Source of the DNA: Kordia antarctica
GTDB lineage: Bacteria > Bacteroidota > Bacteroidia > Flavobacteriales > Flavobacteriaceae
Length of the DNA: 64,000 nt
Assembly (NCBI RefSeq): GCF_009901525.1
Contig: NZ_CP019288.1
Location: 3,005,501-3,069,500, forward strand
Reading direction: 5' to 3'
Shown here: piece by piece, positions 24,926 to 34,990 of the stretch
How positions within the stretch are numbered: position 1 is the stretch's first letter
Layout: every line of letters starts with the position of its first letter
Notes under the pieces: model-generated
Told to the model about the DNA's origin: nothing
Databases searched by the model: none
Seen by the model: the letters and a program-made list of their open reading frames with translations, nothing else
Program-made: the position numbers and the translations under genes

Positions 24926-25318
24926 ATGACAATTACCATTACAGATGAATCTCTTACAGGAGACATTCTCAATCAAATACAAATTGCAGTAGCAAACGAA
25001 ATTAGTACCGTAAAAGACATTATTACTGCACGAGTTTCTGCCGAAGTTGAATTATACAACAACAAACTTCCAGAATATTTCAAAGGATTAATTCGTCCGA
25101 CTGCATCGGAAAAAACACTGAATGGTTTCAAACTAAAAAATAGAAAGAAAAAAATAGATATTGAACAGCAAACATTCATCGCTTTTGATGCTTTTCAGAA
25201 AAATGGATACTTACTTCTCATTGACGATCAGCAAGCAGAAACCTTAGAACAAGAAGTATTAATAACTAATACAACTAAGATAAGCTTTGTAAAACTTACG
25301 CCATTAGTTGGTGGATAA
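24926..25318 (+). CDS. Putative ubiquitin-like/sulfur-carrier protein with C-terminal Gly-Gly
   Basis: 130-residue protein, family not recognised by name. It begins with a likely strand (MTITITDES) and then a helix (TVKDIITARVSAEVELYNN). A Lys-rich middle insertion follows (about 45-100), and it ends GYLLLIDDQQAETLEQEVL ... KISFVKLTPLVGG. The last part has the order of the MoaD/ThiS beta-grasp C-terminus, with a final strand, Pro and terminal Gly-Gly at the very end of the chain. A ThiF/E1-like adenylyltransferase, the enzyme class that activates such tails, is encoded two genes downstream. At 130 residues it is longer than MoaD (~80) because of the middle insertion. The function is inferred from the tail and neighbours. 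It could alternatively be an unrelated DUF4132 partner. Confidence 0.6.
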   Translation: MTITITDESLTGDILNQIQIAVANEISTVKDIITARVSAEVELYNNKLPEYFKGLIRPTASEKTLNGFKLKNRKKKIDIEQQTFIAFDAFQKNGYLLLIDDQQAETLEQEVLITNTTKISFVKLTPLVGG

Positions 25319-25327
25319 TTGAGAACT

Positions 25328-27916
25328 ATGGGATTTAAAGAAAGTCTAAAAAATTTATTTGGCGTAAAAAAAGAAGCAGTTTTAGAACATCCAGTATTTG
25401 ATGAACAATTGAATAAAATTGTACATGAAATCATTTCAGTAGGACACACCTATTCAATACCATTTTCAAAATTGGAGTCGTACAAAGCACTCAAAGTAAA
25501 AGATGCAACCACTAAAAAAGAATTTGCACACTATCTAGCTGAGAAAAAAATAGAATTACTTAAAAAAAGTGAAAGGAAAACGCTATCAAATATTGAGAAT
25601 CGCAAACTACATATCAGCGGTGAATTATTAACCGCATTACTGCGTAGTAATCTGGAATATGAACCTGTTGAGTTTGCTAACTTGATGAGTTTCTTTGCAA
25701 GTGCGTCTGCTACTAAACAAAATCTGATACATTTTTCACATTGGCCAATTGGTTATGCAATACAACAAATAGAAAAAAGTGTTAAGAAAAATGGATTGTC
25801 GCCTGAATGGAAAATCTATATAGAAAAATTTCTAGCATCTCCAGAAATGGAATCCAAAAATGATTATTACGGATCTGACTTAGATAAAATAGAAACTAAA
25901 CTAAAAAAAATACTATTTAACGATCAAAATACGGAAGGAAAAACTCCTCCATACTCACATACTGACGATCGGTTTGGAACTATGCTAAATGCCGAAGTGG
26001 CTACTTTTGATGAAGCTTTACGCGATCATTTTTATCAACTATTTCATCTATTTACAAAAGCATCAAGCGGAAAACCATCACAGCGTTTTCTAAAAACTAC
26101 CAGTGAAATTATTGATGCGATCGGAATTTCAAAATACAAAACCAGTATTCATCCGTGGTTAGAATTTGTCACAAAACTCAAAGAAATAGAGACTAAAAAG
26201 CAACATGACTTCGGTGGTGGTGAAGTATATGATTATAGTAATTATGACTTTTTACACGAAAAAAGCACCACTTTCATCAAAGGATTGGTATGGAGTTTGG
26301 CAAAATTTCACGATTCTACCACATTAAATCTAGTCGCAAAACTAGCGGAACGTTGTTATAAAAAAATTCCTGGTGTTGGCCCAGCTTCCGCTGGAATTGG
26401 AAATGCATGTATGTATGTTTTAGGAAATACCAAAGGACTTGAAGGAATAAGCCACTTATCACGATTAAAATTAAAAATCAAGCAAAATAATACTCGAAAA
26501 CTCATTGAAAAATACTTGGATGAAGCTTCTACCAAACTAGGAATTTCTTCGTCTGAAATAGAAGAACTATCCATTCCGCACTTCGGATTGGAAAACGGTG
26601 CCAAAACATACACTTTTGATGATTATGTATTAGAATTAAAAATACAGGAATTAGGAAAAGTAAACTTAAGTTGGCTAAAACCCGATGGAAAATTGCAAAA
26701 AACAACGCCTGCTTTTGTCAAAAATTCTACTAAACATACGCAAACGCTTAAAAAAGCAAAAAGTGATGTCGCGCAAATAAAAAAATACCTCACCGCACAA
26801 CGCGACAGAATTGATCGTTTATATTTAGAAGATCGCGTGTGGACATATGAAGATTTCTCAAAGCATTATGTACATCACGGATTGGTAAATTTTGTCACAA
26901 AACGATTGTTATGGCAATTTAAAAAAGAAGACACATTTGTCACAGCAATCTATCAAAATGAACAATGGACAACACAAAATAATACAACACTAGACTGGAT
27001 TTCGGAAGAAACAGAAGTTCGTTTGTGGCATCCAATTTATGAAAAAGTAGATAACGTATTATTTTGGCGAAAAAAGTTAGAAGAACTCGAAATAAAACAA
27101 CCATTAAAGCAAGCATATCGCGAAGTATATATTTTAACGGATGCAGAAGTCAACACGAAAACGTATAGTAATCGAATGGCGGCGCACATTTTGAAGCAAC
27201 ATCAATTTAATGCGTTGACAAGCGTTCGCGGCTGGAAATACACATTAATGGGTTCTTTTGATAACGGCGTCGATGACGAAATTGCTTCTATACACATGAA
27301 AGCGCATGGAATAGAAGCGCAATTTTGGATCAATGAATTGAATGCGGAAGATGAATTTAACGACTCAGGAATTTGGAATTATATTGCTACGGATCAAGTC
27401 CGATTTGTCAAAAATAATGAAATCATGGATTTGATTGACGTTCCTAAATTAGTGCTTTCGGAAGTACTTCGTGATGTCGATTTATTTGTGGGAGTTTGTA
27501 GTGTTGGAAACGATCCTGAATGGAGAGATAATGGCGGTTTGCCACAATACCGCGATTATTGGACAAATTATTCTTTTGGAGATTTAACCGAAGTTGCAAA
27601 AACTCGAAAACAAATCTTAGAAAAACTCTTACCACGATTAAAGATCAACAAAGTTTCCACGATTGATGGTAAATTTTTAAAAGTAAAAGGCACGAAACGC
27701 ACGTACAAAATTCACATTGGAAGCACGAATATTTTAATGGAACCCAACGATCAATATTTATGTATTGTTCCCGCAAGAGGAAAAGATAAAAACACAGACA
27801 GTATCTTTTTACCGTTTGAAGGCGATCGTGGATTATCGTTGGTATTAAGCAAAGCTTTTTTATTAGCCGCTGATGATAAAATTACGGATACAACTATTCT
27901 TAGTCAAATAAACTAA
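25328..27916 (+). CDS. DUF4132 domain protein
   Basis: 862-residue cytoplasmic protein. The C-terminal ~250 residues match DUF4132 (ILTDAEVNTKTYSNRMAAH, QVRFVKNNE, DLFVGVCSVGNDPEW, and a last block YLCIVPA...IFLPFEGDRGLSLVLSKAFLLA). The N-terminal ~450 residues are helical with HEAT-like character, and a short GVGPASAGIGNACMYVLG stretch lies near 350. No catalytic residues are known for the family; E. coli MolR-type proteins share the domain. The start ATG at 25328 lies 10 bases after the Gly-Gly gene, and a TTG three codons earlier is less likely. The stop overlaps the E1-like gene start by one base, so the three products probably work together. Confidence 0.85.
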   Translation: MGFKESLKNLFGVKKEAVLEHPVFDEQLNKIVHEIISVGHTYSIPFSKLESYKALKVKDATTKKEFAHYLAEKKIELLKKSERKTLSNIENRKLHISGELLTALLRSNLEYEPVEFANLMSFFASASATKQNLIHFSHWPIGYAIQQIEKSVKKNGLSPEWKIYIEKFLASPEMESKNDYYGSDLDKIETKLKKILFNDQNTEGKTPPYSHTDDRFGTMLNAEVATFDEALRDHFYQLFHLFTKASSGKPSQRFLKTTSEIIDAIGISKYKTSIHPWLEFVTKLKEIETKKQHDFGGGEVYDYSNYDFLHEKSTTFIKGLVWSLAKFHDSTTLNLVAKLAERCYKKIPGVGPASAGIGNACMYVLGNTKGLEGISHLSRLKLKIKQNNTRKLIEKYLDEASTKLGISSSEIEELSIPHFGLENGAKTYTFDDYVLELKIQELGKVNLSWLKPDGKLQKTTPAFVKNSTKHTQTLKKAKSDVAQIKKYLTAQRDRIDRLYLEDRVWTYEDFSKHYVHHGLVNFVTKRLLWQFKKEDTFVTAIYQNEQWTTQNNTTLDWISEETEVRLWHPIYEKVDNVLFWRKKLEELEIKQPLKQAYREVYILTDAEVNTKTYSNRMAAHILKQHQFNALTSVRGWKYTLMGSFDNGVDDEIASIHMKAHGIEAQFWINELNAEDEFNDSGIWNYIATDQVRFVKNNEIMDLIDVPKLVLSEVLRDVDLFVGVCSVGNDPEWRDNGGLPQYRDYWTNYSFGDLTEVAKTRKQILEKLLPRLKINKVSTIDGKFLKVKGTKRTYKIHIGSTNILMEPNDQYLCIVPARGKDKNTDSIFLPFEGDRGLSLVLSKAFLLAADDKITDTTILSQIN

Positions 27917-28593
27917 TGTCGGAAGCGAAATCACATATTTCTTTTGAGCAAACGCTAAAAAACACACACGTTATTGCGGTTGGTTGCGGCGGTTTGGGTT
28001 GTGCTACACTACTTTCGCTCGCGTTATTAGGTATTGGAAAACTAACTATTATTGATGATGATATTATAGAAATTGACAATCTACAACGTCAAATTTTATT
28101 TGATTTGAATGCTGTTGGAAAGTATAAATGTGATGTTGCAAAAACACAATTAGAAGCTCGCACAACTACTGTTGAAATTACCGTTTTTAAAGAACGTTTG
28201 ACTTCCAAAAACAGTGAACAATTACTCCAACAAGCCACCATTATTGTTGATTGTACAGATAACTACGCAACTCGCTTGGTGATTGATGCTTTTTGCGCAA
28301 AACACAACATTCCGATGATATATACTGGCGTAAAAGGTGCGGAAGGGCACATTTCGGTATTCAATTACAAAGGCGGAAAATCATTGGCGGAAACCTTTGA
28401 GAACGATCAGGCGATATTTCAAAATGAAGATTGTAATGATTCTCATGTAATGCCACAAATTGTAACGATGGCTTCAAGTTTTCAAGTAAACGAAGTCGTC
28501 AAAATTCTGCAAGATACTTCAAACGTATTACAAGGAAAATTACAAGTGTTTAATTTGTTGAAAAATGTGTTTCGAGCGTTTACCCTAAAATAA
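27916..28593 (+). CDS. ThiF/MoeB/HesA-family (E1-like) adenylyltransferase
   Basis: 225-residue enzyme that, by family, adenylates the C-terminal glycine of a ubiquitin-like or sulfur-carrier protein. The nucleotide-binding motif AVGCGGLGCA is followed by the acidic strand end IIDDDIIEIDNLQRQILF with the conserved Asn-Leu-x-Arg-Gln, and the metal/ATP Asp in VDCTDNYATR. It is short: no zinc-binding CxxC pairs are seen, and the candidate catalytic Cys is in NEDCNDSH (about 174). It is translationally coupled to DUF4132 by a one-base overlap. No thiamine or molybdopterin genes are nearby, so a dedicated modification pathway is more likely than a housekeeping role. Confidence 0.88.
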   Translation: MSEAKSHISFEQTLKNTHVIAVGCGGLGCATLLSLALLGIGKLTIIDDDIIEIDNLQRQILFDLNAVGKYKCDVAKTQLEARTTTVEITVFKERLTSKNSEQLLQQATIIVDCTDNYATRLVIDAFCAKHNIPMIYTGVKGAEGHISVFNYKGGKSLAETFENDQAIFQNEDCNDSHVMPQIVTMASSFQVNEVVKILQDTSNVLQGKLQVFNLLKNVFRAFTLK

Positions 28594-28651
28594 CAACCTC
28601 CAAAAAAAAATAGTAGTTAAAAGCTACACATAAAATTTGATTCTTTTCTAC

Positions 28652-28659
28652 TATATTTG
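28652..28659 (+). promoter_or_regulatory. -7 promoter element before the T9SS cargo gene
   Basis: TATATTTG matches TAnnTTTG, 59 bases before the ATG at 28718. A TTTG lies at 28636, at shorter spacing than the usual 19 bases. Confidence 0.4.
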
Positions 28660-28717
28660 TTTTTAACATATAAAGAAAACAACTTTTTAATCCAGACTTT
28701 AAAAAACCAATCACACT

Positions 28718-29542
28718 ATGAAAATCAACCTTGTTCAGAAAGTATTCATCCTATCGCTAACACTTTTTAGCTTTTTATATTCAACTCAGTCAAATGCGCA
28801 ATGTACATTACAAGTATTTGCCAACGTAATTAATAATGATTGTCAAGGCGGAAGTAATGGTGCTGTAAGTGCCGTTGGTATTTTTGGTACGCCACCTTAC
28901 ACAGCGGTTTGGAGAAATTCTATGGGAACTATAGTAGAAACTGATACGAATTTGCTCCAAGGACAAGCTTCGAATGCTTCAGGCTTACCTGCGGAGGCAT
29001 ATACTGTAACTTTTACAGATGCTACAGTAACTTGTCAAAGAGCTGCGAATATAAGTGTTGCAAATACAACAATTGACACTTCTACGACAACAAACAGCGG
29101 TACTATCACTTCCAATGCTACTGGAGTAACTTACCAATGGGTAGATTGCAATAATGGTATGAGTGCTATTTCTGGTGAGACGAATAGCAGTTATACACCA
29201 ACTTCCGTTGGAGATTACGCAGTACGATTAGATAAAAATGGCTGTATTGACACTTCTGCCTGTGTTGCCATAACAACTTTAGGAATCAGTGAAAATTCTT
29301 TTTCAAATACATTTAAAGTATATCCAAATCCAACCAGCGGAGATTTTTCAATTGATTTTGAGAATACACATAAAAACCTAACTGTAGTTTTATACTCTTT
29401 AACTGGTCAAATAGTACAAAAACAGCATGCAGAAAACACTTCGCTAATTCAATTAAACATAGACAAACCCGCAGGAATATACATTCTTAAAATTATCGGA
29501 GCTAACGGAGAAAACTCATATCTAAAAGTAATTAAACAGTAA
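28718..29542 (+). CDS. Secreted protein with T9SS type A sorting domain
   Basis: 274-residue extracellular protein. The signal peptide ends near residue 27 (STQSNAQ). A Cys-containing SprB-repeat-like sandwich (CTLQVFANVINNDCQGGSNGAVS, in pieces, about 28-110) is followed by a second Ig-like segment (GVTYQWVDCNNGMSA, YTPTSVGDYAVRL) at about 120-185. The C-terminal ~75 residues are a type A T9SS signal (KVYPNPTSGDFSIDF, VVLYSLTGQIVQK, PAGIYILKI, YLKVIKQ). The ligand is unknown. It is a single gene, and a long hairpin lies downstream at 29567-29615. Confidence 0.85.
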   Translation: MKINLVQKVFILSLTLFSFLYSTQSNAQCTLQVFANVINNDCQGGSNGAVSAVGIFGTPPYTAVWRNSMGTIVETDTNLLQGQASNASGLPAEAYTVTFTDATVTCQRAANISVANTTIDTSTTTNSGTITSNATGVTYQWVDCNNGMSAISGETNSSYTPTSVGDYAVRLDKNGCIDTSACVAITTLGISENSFSNTFKVYPNPTSGDFSIDFENTHKNLTVVLYSLTGQIVQKQHAENTSLIQLNIDKPAGIYILKIIGANGENSYLKVIKQ

Positions 29543-29566
29543 AATTTAGTCAATAAAAAACTGTAT

Positions 29567-29615
29567 TTCCAATGCCAAATATTGACTTCACAACAACACT
29601 ATTTGGCAATTGGAA
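29567..29615 (+). terminator. Long stem-loop downstream of the T9SS cargo gene
   Basis: TTCCAATGCCAAAT pairs with ATTTGGCAATTGGAA (one bulged base) across a 20-base loop. No strong T-run follows, so it may stabilise the 3' end or be a repeat rather than a classic terminator. Confidence 0.4.
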
Positions 29616-29727
29616 GACAAGAACTTACAAAAAAACAAAAACTAATGATGCGTTAATTGCGTATTCCCGTACTTTCCGCAAACACAAATCACGTAGTAAC
29701 ACGCTATTATAAAACAACTTAACGTTC

Positions 29728-29735
29728 TATCTTTG
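29728..29735 (+). promoter_or_regulatory. -7 promoter element before the PD40 gene
   Basis: TATCTTTG matches TAnnTTTG, 23 bases before the ATG at 29758. The -33 box is not clear. Confidence 0.4.
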
Positions 29736-29757
29736 GAGTAACCAACCATTCCATAGT

Positions 29758-30675
29758 ATGAAAGTCAAAGATATTTATCCAATAACGCAAGTTGGCGTTA
29801 ACGCAAACGAAAATTTTATAGATGGTCGTCCATGTTTCAGTCGTGACGGCAATACCGTTCTTTTTGAACGTTCCGGAAACGGAATTTCAAAAGCACAATT
29901 CTGGACTGTAGAACTCCCTACAAAAATAGCAAGCCTATATTATAAAAGTGACGGTTATGACTGCTTAAGAGCTTCTTGGTCGTGGAATCTCGCGCAAAAG
30001 TCAAAGCAAATAGCCTTTACGGGAATGTTTCCTGTTCCTGGTAAAGTTGAACTAGTTTCAAAAATTATGCTTTTAGATGAAAACGGTGCAAATAATAGTG
30101 CTACGCATCTATCAGTTTCTGGGTATGAACAATCGCAATTGTCATATCCTGCTTGGTATCCTAATGAACTTTCACTGTTAATGACAAATTACTCACAATT
30201 ACAACTTTTAAAAGTAGATATCACTACGTTAGAATCAAGCGTATTAACCAGTAGTGAATATTGGTCAGGCATGGGAACTGTAAATCAAAACGATTCTAGT
30301 ATGATCGCTTTCGCGGGACAACCCAAAGGTTCAGGAAAATACAATCAACAAATAAACAGAGTATTACTTCAAGTTGGTAATAATACACCTGTTGTATTTT
30401 CAGATCCAGCACAAGGGAAAATTGGGCGTGCGCCGTGGTTTAGTAATGACGGAAACATTATGGCTTTTGAGGCAATTTCACCGAAAGGAAAATTGCAAAT
30501 TTTTATACGAAAAGTTGATCAAGAAAATCCACAATCAACACCTATAATTTCTGTGAGTAATTCTAATTTTGCTGCGCAACATGCCAAGTTCTCCCGTGAT
30601 GGTTCTCAAATAGTTTGGGCGCAAAATAATGAAAAAGGAGGAGCACAAATCTATATGGGAACTGTTGTAAGTTAA
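29758..30675 (+). CDS. PD40/TolB-like beta-propeller protein without signal peptide
   Basis: 305 residues forming TolB/PD40-type blades. Repeating motifs are RPCFSRDGNTVLFERSG (about 24), SYPAWYPNELSLLMTNY (about 125), RAPWFSNDGNIMAFEAIS (about 222) and HAKFSRDGSQIVWAQN (about 278), giving roughly five or six blades. No signal peptide is present, which is unusual because PD40 proteins are mostly periplasmic. It is therefore either cytoplasmic or exported another way. It lies on the same strand, 1.2 kb before the contractile injection locus, but nothing links it functionally. Confidence 0.75.
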   Translation: MKVKDIYPITQVGVNANENFIDGRPCFSRDGNTVLFERSGNGISKAQFWTVELPTKIASLYYKSDGYDCLRASWSWNLAQKSKQIAFTGMFPVPGKVELVSKIMLLDENGANNSATHLSVSGYEQSQLSYPAWYPNELSLLMTNYSQLQLLKVDITTLESSVLTSSEYWSGMGTVNQNDSSMIAFAGQPKGSGKYNQQINRVLLQVGNNTPVVFSDPAQGKIGRAPWFSNDGNIMAFEAISPKGKLQIFIRKVDQENPQSTPIISVSNSNFAAQHAKFSRDGSQIVWAQNNEKGGAQIYMGTVVS

Positions 30676-30755
30676 CATATTCTAATTCAGCAATTATAAC
30701 ATTAAAACGTCAAAAAACAGGTAGTTCTACCGTACGCTGTTAAAACTTTTAGCAC

Positions 30756-30763
30756 TAATTTTG
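30756..30763 (+). promoter_or_regulatory. -7 promoter element before the HTH regulator
   Basis: TAATTTTG matches TAnnTTTG, about 69 bases before the ATG at 30832. No clear -33 box. Confidence 0.35.
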
Positions 30764-30831
30764 AAACATTCCGCTGATATGATTCCCCAAAAACACACTA
30801 TAACATTTTTTTAAGTAAATATAGTACAGTG

Positions 30832-31680
30832 ATGACTACACATGAAAATATACTTATCGGAAGTGATACTTCTGCGTCACTTGCAGCTATTATAAAGAGC
30901 TTGCAAGACGTGAATCAGTATAGTTTTATCACAGCAACACGTGTGTCAGATATTGTTCAAATTGCAAAATCAATTCAGCCAATTTTAATCATTCTTAGCT
31001 TTCGAGACAATCAACATATTATAAAATCACTGTTGACATATAACAAAGATTTTTCGATTCCTATTTTGTGTTTGCTCCAAAAAAATGAACGTCATCATTT
31101 ACAAATGTGTGATACTATTGTAGTTTTTACGCAAATGTTTGAGTATGGAATTCAGTATAATAATTTAAGCACCAATGTTCAAGGAATTTTAAAATTAGTT
31201 CAAAAAACTAAGCCATCGCAAGCACCAAAAACATTTGTGCAAAGTGCAATGCAAACGAAAAACTTAACTCGTTTTACCTTAGAACTCGATCAAAAAAAAG
31301 CCGTTTTAGATAAAATAAAAGAACGCATCAAGCAATTATATGACGGCGTAGATGCTGCTACCAAAACAAAATTGATGTCTATTGTAAATACGATCAAAAT
31401 GACGCGAAATGATCGAAAACATTGGGACGATTTCAAACATTACTTCGAAAATGTAAATCCGAGTTTCTTAAAAGAATTAAGCACAAAATTTCCATGTCTT
31501 ACAGCAAAGGACTTAAAATATTGCTGTTACTTAAAAATGAATATGTCTAATGAAGACATTCGTTTAATCTTAGGAATCAATCAAGAAAGTGTCCGCACAC
31601 ACAAATACCGTCTAAAGAAAAAAATGGTGCTACAAAAACATCAAGATCTTCGCAATTATCTTCAAACCTTTGCGAATTAA
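30832..31680 (+). CDS. Pseudo-receiver/HTH transcriptional regulator upstream of the eCIS locus
   Basis: 282 residues. Residues 1-125 follow a receiver-like beta-alpha pattern (ILIGSDTSASLAAIIKSLQ, PILIILSFRDN, IPILCLLQK), but the phosphoacceptor Asp is missing (IILSF), so phosphorylation is not expected. A charged coil (about 150-185) leads to a C-terminal LuxR-like helix-turn-helix (FPCLTAKDLKYCCYLKMNMSNEDIRLILGINQESVRTHKYRLKKKM), typical of Bacteroidota regulators with a C-terminal HTH. The ATG at 30832 is preferred to a GTG one codon earlier. It ends 286 bases before the first eCIS gene and is the obvious candidate for its control; this is inferred from position. Confidence 0.75.
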   Translation: MTTHENILIGSDTSASLAAIIKSLQDVNQYSFITATRVSDIVQIAKSIQPILIILSFRDNQHIIKSLLTYNKDFSIPILCLLQKNERHHLQMCDTIVVFTQMFEYGIQYNNLSTNVQGILKLVQKTKPSQAPKTFVQSAMQTKNLTRFTLELDQKKAVLDKIKERIKQLYDGVDAATKTKLMSIVNTIKMTRNDRKHWDDFKHYFENVNPSFLKELSTKFPCLTAKDLKYCCYLKMNMSNEDIRLILGINQESVRTHKYRLKKKMVLQKHQDLRNYLQTFAN

Positions 31681-31966
31681 TTCACATCAAACATTAAAAT
31701 AAAAAACAATCAAAACTTCCGTATCTTCAACTCGAAGTATTGCTGTCTTCAAAAACCCAAAAAATTAGTAGTGTAATTGTATCCATAAAAAAGTGTGTAT
31801 TGTTATTTATATACACATTTCACTCTTGTCTACGTTTTGTCTACGGAAAACTTCATACAACTCAAAAATGTACATAAATGGTATACGCTTACAATGCTTT
31901 ATTCTGTAATTGTATCATTAATTTTAACATCCAATAAAGTTAACTAACCAAAACCATTTGCCTATC
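31681..31966 (+). promoter_or_regulatory. Leader region of the eCIS operon with an 11-bp-spaced direct repeat
   Basis: A 286-base AT-rich region with no gene. TTGTCTACG occurs at 31826-31834 and again at 31837-31845, exactly 11 bp apart, as in a tandem operator. GTGTATTG...TATACAC around 31797-31816 gives a small hairpin. No perfect TAnnTTTG element was found, so the promoter itself is not located. Confidence 0.4.
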
Positions 31967-32542
31967 ATGATTGAAAAAGCACTTCAATTTACAGGAAAAG
32001 CACTTAACCAATTTGTCAAAAAGAAATTTGGCTTAGATGAAGATGTGGTCACAATCAATCCTATTATTGATCAAAATGGTGTTGTCCCGAAGGAAAATCA
32101 AAACAAAATTGTCATTTCGTTAATTCACATAGAACAAGATACAACGAAACAATTCTACAATAGAAATCAACAACTACAAAACGGAAATTATATAAAAGCG
32201 CCGCTCTCCTATCGCTACAATCTATTTGTATTAATCACGCCAAACTTTACCAATTATAGTGAAGCGTTAAAATTTTTAGATGCGTCCATTCAGTTTTTTC
32301 AAATCAATGCAATGATTGATGCGACACGAAATGCAGAAATTCCTGCCGATTTAGGAAAACTTGAATACGAATTTCAAAAAGGTGAAAACTATATGCAAAT
32401 GCAAAACTTGTGGACAGCACTTGGCGCAAAATACCAACCATCTGTTATATACAAAATACGTCTAGTAACAATCGCTTCTGACGAAATTGAAGGATTTGAT
32501 ACTGGAATAATAGAAATAAACACAAACGCCAACGAAAAATAA
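31967..32542 (+). CDS. eCIS DUF4255 protein (Afp16/Pvc16-like tail terminator or cap)
   Basis: 191-residue first structural gene of the contractile injection system. The segment IEKALQFTGKALNQFVKKKFGL followed by strands KIVISLIHIEQD, YNLFVLITPNFTNYSEALKFLDASIQFFQ and YKIRLVTIASDEIEGFD matches DUF4255, found at the N-terminus of Afp16/Pvc16, the protein that closes the distal tube end. The start ATG at 31967 gives the standard N-terminus; a TTG nine bases earlier is less likely. The stop overlaps the next start by one base. Length is close to the family's ~190. Confidence 0.85.
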   Translation: MIEKALQFTGKALNQFVKKKFGLDEDVVTINPIIDQNGVVPKENQNKIVISLIHIEQDTTKQFYNRNQQLQNGNYIKAPLSYRYNLFVLITPNFTNYSEALKFLDASIQFFQINAMIDATRNAEIPADLGKLEYEFQKGENYMQMQNLWTALGAKYQPSVIYKIRLVTIASDEIEGFDTGIIEINTNANEK

Positions 32543-33357
32543 TGACTACATCGTATACATCTTTATTTCGAGTAACTGTCGCGCATTCATACTATGCGTC
32601 AGGCAATTGCGAATGCTTACACTACAAAGCAAGTTCAGAAACGCAACTATTAATAGACAAATACGGATTCATTATGAAAGCAACCGCAACGGGTTTTGAA
32701 ATGTATGCAACGAGCAATCAATCTATTGAAAACTACGTAAACTATATCTCGCAAGTATCTGGAAATACGGCTTTCGCTTTCGCTGGAATTACCTCAGATC
32801 AAAACTTTTACAACTTTACTGATGTGCCAATAAACGAACTTGGCGTGCTTTCATTTGCGAGCAATAACACAGAAAATGTAGTAACGAATGAAACGATTCA
32901 ACTGGCAGAAACTTTTAGTACAGATACTACTTCGCAAGAAGCAATTTCAATAACGATACAATTTGAAGATATCATTCGCTTCCGCAGAATGAACTCAGAA
33001 GTACTATTTGACATTCAATTAAAAGCACGAGAAACTCAATGGAAGTATTATGTAATCAACAATTCCAATCAAGAATACAATCAACTAAACATACAAAGTG
33101 AAAATAATATTCAATTTTCAGCACCAACGGAAGTCACACTTCAAAATGGTCAAAATGCAGTATTATTTTCATCTGAAACTACCAAAATTCCATTAAAAAA
33201 TGTGGTAGTATATAACTTCAATCTAACCAATACAAAATCAACAATAGCTGGTGAACGAACAGAAACTATCATCAAAGGATTGCCCATTCCAAATCCTCAA
33301 AATTTACAAGTAAATAACGACCATACAATAGCATCTTTAGTATATCTATATATCTAA
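32542..33357 (+). CDS. Hypothetical eCIS protein (possible cap adaptor), 271 aa
   Basis: Not recognised as a named family. Beta-rich and soluble: residues 1-85 have a compact strand pattern (SLFRVTVAHSYYASGNCECLHYKAS, in pieces), followed by Thr/Ser/Asn-rich strands to the end (VVVYNFNLTN, IASLVYLYI). The gene overlaps the DUF4255 gene by one base and precedes the sheath gene, so co-assembly with the distal end of the particle is likely. Some marine Bacteroidota eCIS encode a cap adaptor; this position fits, but the sequence does not prove it. Confidence 0.6.
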   Translation: MTTSYTSLFRVTVAHSYYASGNCECLHYKASSETQLLIDKYGFIMKATATGFEMYATSNQSIENYVNYISQVSGNTAFAFAGITSDQNFYNFTDVPINELGVLSFASNNTENVVTNETIQLAETFSTDTTSQEAISITIQFEDIIRFRRMNSEVLFDIQLKARETQWKYYVINNSNQEYNQLNIQSENNIQFSAPTEVTLQNGQNAVLFSSETTKIPLKNVVVYNFNLTNTKSTIAGERTETIIKGLPIPNPQNLQVNNDHTIASLVYLYI

Positions 33358-33409
33358 AAATGCCTTATTAAGTAAACTAAAAATTAACAAGAACTAATAA
33401 CTATGTTTT

Positions 33410-34990
33410 ATGAATTTATCAACCATTAAATCTCCAGGTGTTTACATCAATGAAATAAATGGATTCGGAAATTCAGTTGTCCCAGTGCCGACTGCTGTTC
33501 CCGCATTTATTGGATACACACCACAAGCTATGTACGAAGGGAAATCGTATGCAAATGTACCAACGAAGATTACTTCCTTTACAGATTTTCAGGCAATATT
33601 TATGCTACCAAGTCCAGCTGCGCCTGCCGATCCTGCAAAGCAATATAGTCCACAGTACTATTTAGTAGCAGAAAAAAGTCAACCCGAAAAAGGTGACTAT
33701 GTACAAATTGACGGAACCTTCTACTCTATTGTTCCCGATGCAAACACCATTTACTATTTATACAATAGCATTCGCTTATTCTACGAAAATGGTGGCGGAG
33801 ACGCATACATTGTATCTGTTGGAAGTTATGGATCAGCTTCTGGAAAACCAATGACGCCAGGCGATCAAATTGTGAATCCAAATGTACAACTCAACGATCT
33901 TACTGGCGGACTTGCTTTACTAAAAAATGAACAAGAACCAACCATGTATATCTGTCCAGAAGCTACCTTACTTTCTGTAGCAAATAACGGAACCTTAATG
34001 GCTTCTATGTTATTACAAGCGGAAGAAATGCAAACTGCGGTTTCTATTTTAGATATCATTGGTGGTAGAAATCCTGATCCAGTTATGTGGATGGACGATA
34101 TTACAGCATTTCGTGACAGTACAGGAGCCAATGGACTCAGCTACGGAGCGGCATATTATCCGTTTGTAGGAACCACTATTATGCAAACATCTGACTTAGA
34201 CTATACCAACTTATTTGGAGGCGATTTAAAACAATTAAAACCACTTTTAAGTCCGGCAGACAATCCAAATGCTACCGTAGAAACGATTATAGGAAACATT
34301 GAAAATCCGCCAGGAACGCCATTAACGGTAAGTCAATATAACAATTCACTAATTGCAGCAAGTAAAACGTATAACAACATCATCAATCATGTATTAGCGG
34401 ATGCAAACATGTTGCCTCCAAGTGGCGGAATGGCTGGTGTTATTACGGTAACTGATAACGAAGTTGGTCCGTGGCAAGCGCCTGCAAATACCTCCATGGT
34501 AGGTGCGTCTTCGCTTCCTATAAAACTATCAGAAACACAACAAGCAGACTTAAATGTAGATGCGGTTTCAGGAAAATCGATCAATGCAATTCGTTTTTTC
34601 AAAGGACTTGGAATCCTAATTTGGGGCGCAAGAACGCTTGATGGAAACAGTCAAGATTGGCGTTACCTTTCGGTTAGAAGAACTATGAACTTCTTAGAAC
34701 AATCGTCTAAACTCGCAGCACAAGCGTATGTATTTGCACCAAATGACAAAAACACATGGGAAGCTGTGAAAACTATGATTGGAAGTTTCCTATCAGGTAT
34801 ATGGAAACAAGGAGGATTACAAGGAGCTACGGCTGCGGCAGCTTTTTCTGTAGAATGCGGATTAGGAGCAACAATGACGTCAGACGATATCTTAAACGGA
34901 TTTATGAATGTAACTATTAAAGTTGCTGTAGTACGTCCTGCAGAATTTATTGTACTGACTTTCCAACAACAACAAGCAACTTCTAGTTAA
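33410..34990 (+). CDS. Contractile tail sheath protein (Afp2-4-like)
   Basis: 526-residue sheath subunit. The N-terminal signature SPGVYINEINGFGNSVVPVPTAVPAFIGYTP (in pieces, about 8-37) and the C-terminal block IRFFKGLGILIWGARTLDGNSQDWRYLSVRRTMNFLEQS (about 398-436), followed by FVVL-type strands FMNVTIKVAVVRPAEFIVLTFQQQ, are diagnostic of the phage tail sheath family in eCIS. It surrounds the inner tube and contracts on firing. Only one sheath gene is present, unlike Afp/PVC with several. An alternative short ATG frame at 33403 ends after eight codons and is not the start. Confidence 0.97.
   Translation: MNLSTIKSPGVYINEINGFGNSVVPVPTAVPAFIGYTPQAMYEGKSYANVPTKITSFTDFQAIFMLPSPAAPADPAKQYSPQYYLVAEKSQPEKGDYVQIDGTFYSIVPDANTIYYLYNSIRLFYENGGGDAYIVSVGSYGSASGKPMTPGDQIVNPNVQLNDLTGGLALLKNEQEPTMYICPEATLLSVANNGTLMASMLLQAEEMQTAVSILDIIGGRNPDPVMWMDDITAFRDSTGANGLSYGAAYYPFVGTTIMQTSDLDYTNLFGGDLKQLKPLLSPADNPNATVETIIGNIENPPGTPLTVSQYNNSLIAASKTYNNIINHVLADANMLPPSGGMAGVITVTDNEVGPWQAPANTSMVGASSLPIKLSETQQADLNVDAVSGKSINAIRFFKGLGILIWGARTLDGNSQDWRYLSVRRTMNFLEQSSKLAAQAYVFAPNDKNTWEAVKTMIGSFLSGIWKQGGLQGATAAAAFSVECGLGATMTSDDILNGFMNVTIKVAVVRPAEFIVLTFQQQQATSS

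Follow-up and report, generated by a model that had tools for sequence, protein, structure and literature searches.

What does a small protein ending in Gly-Gly do when its gene lies next to those of a large DUF4132-family protein and of an enzyme resembling ubiquitin-activating (E1) enzymes? The question is raised by three genes in a 64,000-nucleotide stretch of Kordia antarctica DNA (contig NZ_CP019288.1, positions 3,005,501 to 3,069,500; the whole stretch is referred to as the window), which a preliminary description had read as a three-gene cassette, a dedicated system acting on or through DUF4132. The three open reading frames (ORFs), their order and the tail SFVKLTPLVGG of the first product are as described there, the third product is of the ThiF/MoeB type, and the DUF4132 gene lies between the other two, its stop codon sharing one base with the third ATG (TAATG). 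We find that the constant unit across genomes is a pair consisting of the small protein and a DUF4132 protein with a C-terminal DUF7737 domain, a domain that the earlier description had missed, and that in alignments the Gly-Gly tail is strongly associated with one cysteine of the partner, Cys812 (Table 1).

A predicted beta-grasp protein with a conserved tail

The 130-residue product of the first gene had been proposed to be a beta-grasp modifier, and structure prediction supports this fold: the model has a beta-beta-alpha-beta(-beta-beta) arrangement with a free, flexible C-terminal tail, and its best structural match is the human MoaD, MOCS2A. We therefore refer to it as a ubiquitin-like protein (Ubl). 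Pfam (above cut-off) and NCBIfam gave no match to it, and neither the Ubl nor the DUF4132 profile finds a credible match among the sequences of solved structures. All 18 close homologues that were aligned terminate in Gly-Gly, and linked Ubls ending in Gly-Gly recur in 38 rows of our compilation, from Bacteroidota, Pseudomonadota, Actinomycetota and Deinococcota; the tail is thus not a chance ending. Two of the 63 open frames of at least 100 residues in the window end in GG. The expectation that homologues end in Gly-Gly does not hold throughout, since in 18 further rows (17 proteins) the linked Ubl ends in an aromatic residue instead (..GTYW, ..GSYW, ..AGGW or ..GRLW). Both kinds share a tail motif in which Thr, Leu and the first Gly are invariant (19-row alignment), and the search profile was built from both. 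No match was found in viral contigs with the Ubl alignment, or in phages with the DUF4132 protein.

The Ubl recurs with DUF7737

Proteins with DUF4132 or DUF7737 were found at 20 named loci, in 19 of 299 Flavobacteriaceae genomes, in 11 of 398 genomes of Pseudomonadota (the phylum of locus L039) and on 14 plasmid-collection records; the plasmid loci read are from Novosphingobium, Nonomuraea (two places), Deinococcus (four), Bacteroides, Acetobacter and Burkholderia (one). Three further draws gave the DUF7737 domain PF24879 in 3/210, 1/146 and 5/198 genomes, and a direct search with the Ubl profile gave 11 of 395 Bacteroidota. For most loci the assembly has no experimental annotation. Gene neighbours beyond the window were judged from ORF tables, and the Pfam scan covered nine window ORFs (24926-34990).

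The compilation has 66 DUF7737-bearing rows, representing 65 proteins because one is counted both as a whole frame and as a fragment (L049, L065). A linked Ubl is present at 58 of them: 38 with Gly-Gly, 18 with an aromatic tail and two in which the Ubl gene is interrupted. Two of the Gly-Gly rows share one Ubl gene (L036), and another (L035) covers 323 residues of a DUF4132 frame that is split. In the remaining eight rows there is no linked Ubl. They include the two copies of L034, at a contig end; the third copy at L036 and the second at L095, whose genomes have a Ubl beside another copy; L114, whose replicon also holds L123, which has one; the fragments L121 and L054, the latter from a genome with no Ubl match at all; and an Acetobacter protein (L115) with Phe at the Cys812 site and no Ubl on its plasmid. 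Where DUF4132/DUF7737 genes are multi-copy (L036, L095, L034), one Ubl gene or none adjoins them. Two suspected fusions were not borne out: in the Ubl-DUF4132 gene suggested by open frame 1053 a stop codon follows the Gly-Gly, and no Ubl fused to the Nonomuraea DUF4132 protein (L114) was seen.

Fourteen DUF4132 proteins of the YehI type lack DUF7737; they come from 8 of the 11 Pseudomonadota genomes positive for DUF4132. At expectation values up to 1 no Ubl was found in their flanks as read, one of the proteins lying at a contig end. Because 58 of 66 DUF7737 rows but none of these 14 proteins are linked to a Ubl, it is DUF7737, and not DUF4132 as such, that tracks the Ubl. The Escherichia coli control agrees in domain content, with a PF13569 match and no PF24879 match. 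Three of the DUF7737-less genes (L098, L099, L102) lie in similar runs of gene sizes, with neighbours of about 380, 640-690 and 790-850 residues, which are reminiscent of the MoxR/vWA/SWIM neighbourhood of the E. coli yeh genes.

One cysteine of the partner changes with the tail

Aligned at their C-termini, 38 of 38 partners of Gly-Gly Ubls have Cys812, versus none of the 16 partners of aromatic-tail Ubls, which carry Ser (12), Asn (2), His (1) or Ala (1) at this site. Among the 28 columns invariant in the Gly-Gly set, this is the sole one missing from all 16 aromatic-tail partners, and relaxing the filter to at least 36/38 versus at most 1/16 adds no other column. In the first 22 full-length sequences, too, no other cysteine column was invariant. 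A smaller taxon set was far less specific, with 20 of 59 invariant columns differing; once Deinococcus and other distant Gly-Gly members were added, one differing column remained. Given that exactly one column of 28 is lost, it would be the one cysteine with a chance of 1 in 28, which is suggestive but not decisive. Cys812 is present as well in the two rows whose Ubl gene is interrupted (L028, L057); read beyond the break, or in a different frame, their Ubls end in LVGG. Two aromatic-tail Ubls (L051, L052) end in AGGW, a Gly-Gly with one Trp after it, which looks like a cap or a precursor form; their partners have His or Asn at position 812.

Partners of Gly-Gly Ubls are mostly 818-881 residues long (others are 688, 1117 and the 323-residue piece, and about 1630 in four Deinococcus), and those of aromatic-tail Ubls are 1652-1747 residues (longest open frames, fragments aside). 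The Deinococcus proteins share the long architecture of the aromatic-tail class, yet have a Gly-Gly tail and the cysteine. A tree of 62 rows (38 Gly-Gly, 16 aromatic, 6 without a Ubl, 2 interrupted) places a single change of the tail and a single change of the cysteine on one shared branch among the long proteins (support 89/84); several long branches are flagged in other parts of the tree. Fragments under 250 residues (L054, L065, L066, L121) were left out of the tree and the column analysis.

An E1-like enzyme is optional at the locus and often found elsewhere in the genome

The third gene was described as part of a three-gene unit, and recurrence of that linkage was a point on which the description could be checked; the pair does recur in four phyla, and the ThiF gene proves optional. 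A cassette ThiF (within 500 bases, same strand) is present at 12 of 38 Gly-Gly rows and at one interrupted locus, and at none of 18 aromatic rows (Fisher p 0.006, the rows being non-independent), which rules it out as an obligate part. The window enzyme has a nucleotide-binding GxGxxG loop (GCGGLG, residue 23), and its best solved relatives by sequence are E. coli MoeB (1jw9) and ThiF (1zud), although it scores below the NCBIfam equivalog cut-offs (TIGR02356, 166 bits against 275; TIGR02355, 140 bits against 377). The cassette enzymes are short, at 214-236 residues.

We looked for features that would mark the cassette enzymes. A cysteine at the position of ThiF Cys184 is present in 13 of 13, and the position is unspecific as a mark because 19 of 21 other ThiF-family proteins share it; loss of the zinc CxxC motifs is likewise unsuitable, as several housekeeping relatives also deviate in the columns printed. 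A single origin was also rejected: ten of the 13 cluster together, distinct from the housekeeping MoeB-like enzymes (88/71), and L105 with L132, and L134, fall separately.

Each of the 16 genomes of the Gly-Gly kind that were searched and lack a cassette ThiF (including Zobellia, with its interrupted Ubl) holds another strong ThiF/MoeB-like protein, and in 5 of 11 searched cassette genomes (four Kordia and Mangrovimonas) no other strong MoeB-like match was found. For comparison, 95 of 149 genomes of the family are positive at expectation values up to 1e-63, a threshold cleared by at least two of the cassette enzymes too. The PF00899 search left out the Gly-Gly genomes G1400, G1243, G1423, G1435 and L032 and the plasmid records. 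These data fit the view that an E1 is always at hand in Gly-Gly genomes; as proof, however, availability was set aside as a weak test that does not discriminate, since 15 of 16 aromatic-tail genomes are positive too.

An alternative explanation for the pairing is that the Ubl is a non-covalent regulatory subunit whose tail binds DUF4132/DUF7737, with Cys/Gly-Gly and Ser/aromatic as two packing solutions and ThiF incidental or in another role. In the aromatic branch the pairing persists, along with much of the tail motif, although there is no free Gly-Gly, and ThiF is optional; in one aromatic-tail genome (G220) nothing matched the ThiF family. A mere packing motif would not be expected to hold Gly-Gly across four phyla in 38 rows, nor to have a cassette ThiF with Gly-Gly tails only, and we regard this explanation as quite unlikely.

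A published phenotype in Deinococcus radiodurans

The D. radiodurans locus encodes, in order, a thioredoxin, a 134-residue Ubl ending in LTALAGG and a 1626-residue DUF4132 protein, and judged by synteny (order and content) it is DR_A0164-DR_A0165-DR_A0166. DR_A0165 (SEP068184) is upregulated by gamma irradiation and oxidative treatment, mutants indicate that it is a negative regulator of oxidative stress resistance, its model resembles MoaD-type structures including 5MPO, and it binds Trx1 in pull-downs (PMC9650054). DRA0165 is also listed with a DdrO site, mitomycin C raises DRA0166 in the wild type, a rise that an irrE mutant does not show, and a Deinococcus moeB is named (PMC8533742); the two sources disagree on a radiation/desiccation motif at DRA0165 (PMC9650054, PMC8533742). 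The statement that DR_A0165 occurs only in Deinococcus (PMC9650054) is contradicted by the recurrence of the family in four phyla. In the parts read, neither source draws a connection between the tail, DUF7737 and the cysteine (PMC9650054, PMC8533742). At the D. radiodurans locus (L119), the opposite strand carries thiD, a thiazole synthase gene, thiS and thiE some 4-6 kb downstream, with modA nearer.

The thioredoxin is consistent with a second alternative, in which the Ubl is a sulfur carrier with a C-terminal thiocarboxylate like MoaD, ThiS and Urm1, and the DUF4132 enzyme uses the sulfur with Cys812 as a relay and no conjugation. The nearest fold is that of MoaD, in D. radiodurans the homologue interacts with the thioredoxin encoded next to it and has an effect on oxidative resistance (PMC9650054), and DUF4132 is tied by name to molybdopterin (PMC8533742). 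In addition, 13 of the 16 Gly-Gly-kind genomes that lack a cassette ThiF have their best MoeB-like match in a frame of 355-448 residues, exceeding MoeB as expected with a rhodanese part (judged from length). The short cassette ThiFs argue the other way, as does the lack of any recurring biosynthetic neighbour noticed at the loci read (from ORF tables, not full domain scans), and we think this alternative unlikely.

A third alternative is conjugation of the Ubl by an E1 alone to many targets, with DUF4132 as a reader or substrate adaptor and no cysteine carrier. Conjugation free of E2 (ubiquitin-conjugating) enzymes has a precedent in SAMP/Urm1. A set of 157 co-purified proteins is common to four groups, obtained with overexpressed tagged protein that included C-terminal tags (PMC9650054). 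This alternative leaves unexplained why Cys812 alone changes with the tail, and we hold it to be very improbable.

A proposed two-component system with Cys812 as a candidate acceptor

The reading that we favour, at about an even level of confidence, is a two-component Ubl system with an optional dedicated E1, in which the tail would be activated and then received by Cys812. A ThiF-type enzyme would activate the C-terminal Gly130 of the Ubl, this being the cassette's own ThiF where present and otherwise a housekeeping MoeB-like enzyme. The activated tail would pass to Cys812 of DUF7737 as a thioester or acyl-disulfide, so that DUF4132/DUF7737 might replace E2 and ubiquitin ligase (E3) enzymes or a sulfur-accepting partner, and the outcome of the handover could be conjugation or sulfur transfer. 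The N-terminal region (residues 20-412) is predicted to form helical repeats of the ARM/HEAT kind, a match of low specificity since helical repeats match widely; it is plausible from the model that this part binds the target. In the aromatic branch the tail would be capped and the cysteine lost, leaving a non-covalent subunit pair. As to the chemistry, the thioredoxin link and the MoaD-like fold point towards sulfur, and the lack of a noticed recurring biosynthetic neighbour points towards protein modification.

Several observations weigh against this reading. The switch of tail and cysteine is single on the tree, with no independent replicate but the weak Acetobacter case, for which only the plasmid was searched; the correspondence of tail and Cys812 is therefore an association and not proof. 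A metagenome-assembled genome (L034) has two Cys-bearing copies at a contig end and no Ubl match in the whole assembly, and in some genomes two or three DUF4132/DUF7737 copies are accompanied by a single adjacent Ubl gene. Twenty-six of the 38 Gly-Gly rows lack a cassette ThiF, and a MoeB-like enzyme is found in nearly all aromatic-tail genomes. In MoeB, an N-terminal Arg-Tyr (MoeB Arg14) serves catalysis, and the five Kordia cassette ThiFs lack this pair, which most relatives have. Finally, the DUF7737 part of the model has mostly low confidence (predicted local distance difference test of about 45-75), and the active-site geometry is therefore unreadable. The earlier proposal of a dedicated system working through DUF4132 is in part supported; the dedicated E1 is not obligate.

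Comparison with known systems

Like MoaD, ThiS and Urm1 with MoeB, ThiF and Uba4, the system has a predicted beta-grasp carrier with a free Gly-Gly, a ThiF-superfamily enzyme and a cysteine at the ThiF Cys184 position. Unlike these carriers, the window Ubl is 130 residues long, carries an insert that separates helix 1 from the following long strand, has no credible sequence match and is partnered by DUF4132/DUF7737 rather than MoaE or ThiG; the cassette enzyme differs from ThiF and MoeB in scoring far under their equivalog cut-offs.

Bil and CBASS Cap2/Cap3 are bacterial Ubl operons of the E1-E2-JAB type. A Ubl and an E1-like enzyme in one operon are shared with such systems (PMC1779556, rows 6a-6e), but no E2 (UQ_con) or JAB domain is present among the nine window ORFs scanned. 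The same genome has a separate operon elsewhere (L059, G000:C1:2176000-2184000) with an 87-residue weakly YukD-like protein, a 423-residue E1, an E2-like UQ_con protein and a JAB protein.

With the YehI/MolR type of E. coli, PF13569 is shared; the E. coli protein and the 14 YehI-type proteins lack DUF7737, and no Ubl was found next to those 14 within the flanks read. A text search of PMC1779556 gave no mention of MolR or molybdate. The D. radiodurans pair DR_A0165-DR_A0166 is a member of the family and differs from the window in its 1626-residue partner and in that no cassette ThiF was found. The literature searched gave no known biochemistry for DUF4132 or DUF7737, three papers with DUF4132, no paper naming DUF7737 and no report of a Ubl and DUF4132/DUF7737 family.

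Features of the window locus

The genome is a single contig of 5.5 Mb, and the nearest named relatives of the DUF4132 protein are from Kordia spp. (81 to 75% identity, best segment). An alternative TTG start at 25319 gives an 865-residue ORF (25319-27916, + strand), the numbering used for the two domains in Table 1; the start is more probably the ATG at 25328 (MGFKESL), which agrees with the homologue consensus MGxK.

Table 1. Positions of the locus features within the window.
Feature	Position	Strand	Basis
Ubl (predicted beta-grasp), 130 residues, C-terminus FVKLTPLVGG	24926..25318	+	ORF, homologue alignment, predicted fold
Gly-Gly codons of the Ubl tail	25310-25315	+	ORF reading
DUF4132-DUF7737 protein, 862 residues, probable ATG start	25328..27916	+	ORF, Pfam, homologue consensus start
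DUF4132 domain PF13569, residues 457-639 of 865	26687..27235	+	Pfam, 124 bits
DUF7737 domain PF24879, residues 760-864 of 865	27596..27910	+	Pfam, 134 bits
Cys812 codon TGT (862-residue numbering)	27761-27763	+	C-terminal alignment
ThiF-family E1-like adenylyltransferase, 225 residues	27916..28593	+	Pfam PF00899, 193 bits (cut-off 28.1)
ThiF-like Cys173 codon, aligned with Cys184 of E. coli ThiF (1zud)	28432-28434	+	Alignment

Downstream, at 31958-59799 of the window, is a contractile injection system with Pvc16_N, sheath, CIS_tube, baseplate, AAA ATPase and eCIS_core domains. A link between it and the cassette was considered and dropped: ORFs of the same sizes follow the cassette in K. algicida (L022), and none were noticed outside Kordia in the ORF tables read.

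Implications

The association of tail and Cys812 reduces a pair of proteins of unknown function to one testable pair of residues, with the aromatic-tail branch as a natural negative control, and the Ubl family provides a frame for the orphan published phenotype of DR_A0165. The pairing of Gly-Gly with Cys812 suggests an unrecognised way to activate and pass on a Ubl. More tentatively, and with less than even probability, DUF7737 could be an unrecognised cysteine-dependent Ubl acceptor that replaces E2 and E3, within a modification or sulfur-relay system present in at least four phyla and induced by DNA damage in Deinococcus, of which one natural branch would have lost tail and cysteine together and now form a non-covalent pair. 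If the acceptor role is true, this would be a bacterial ubiquitin-like relay without an E2.

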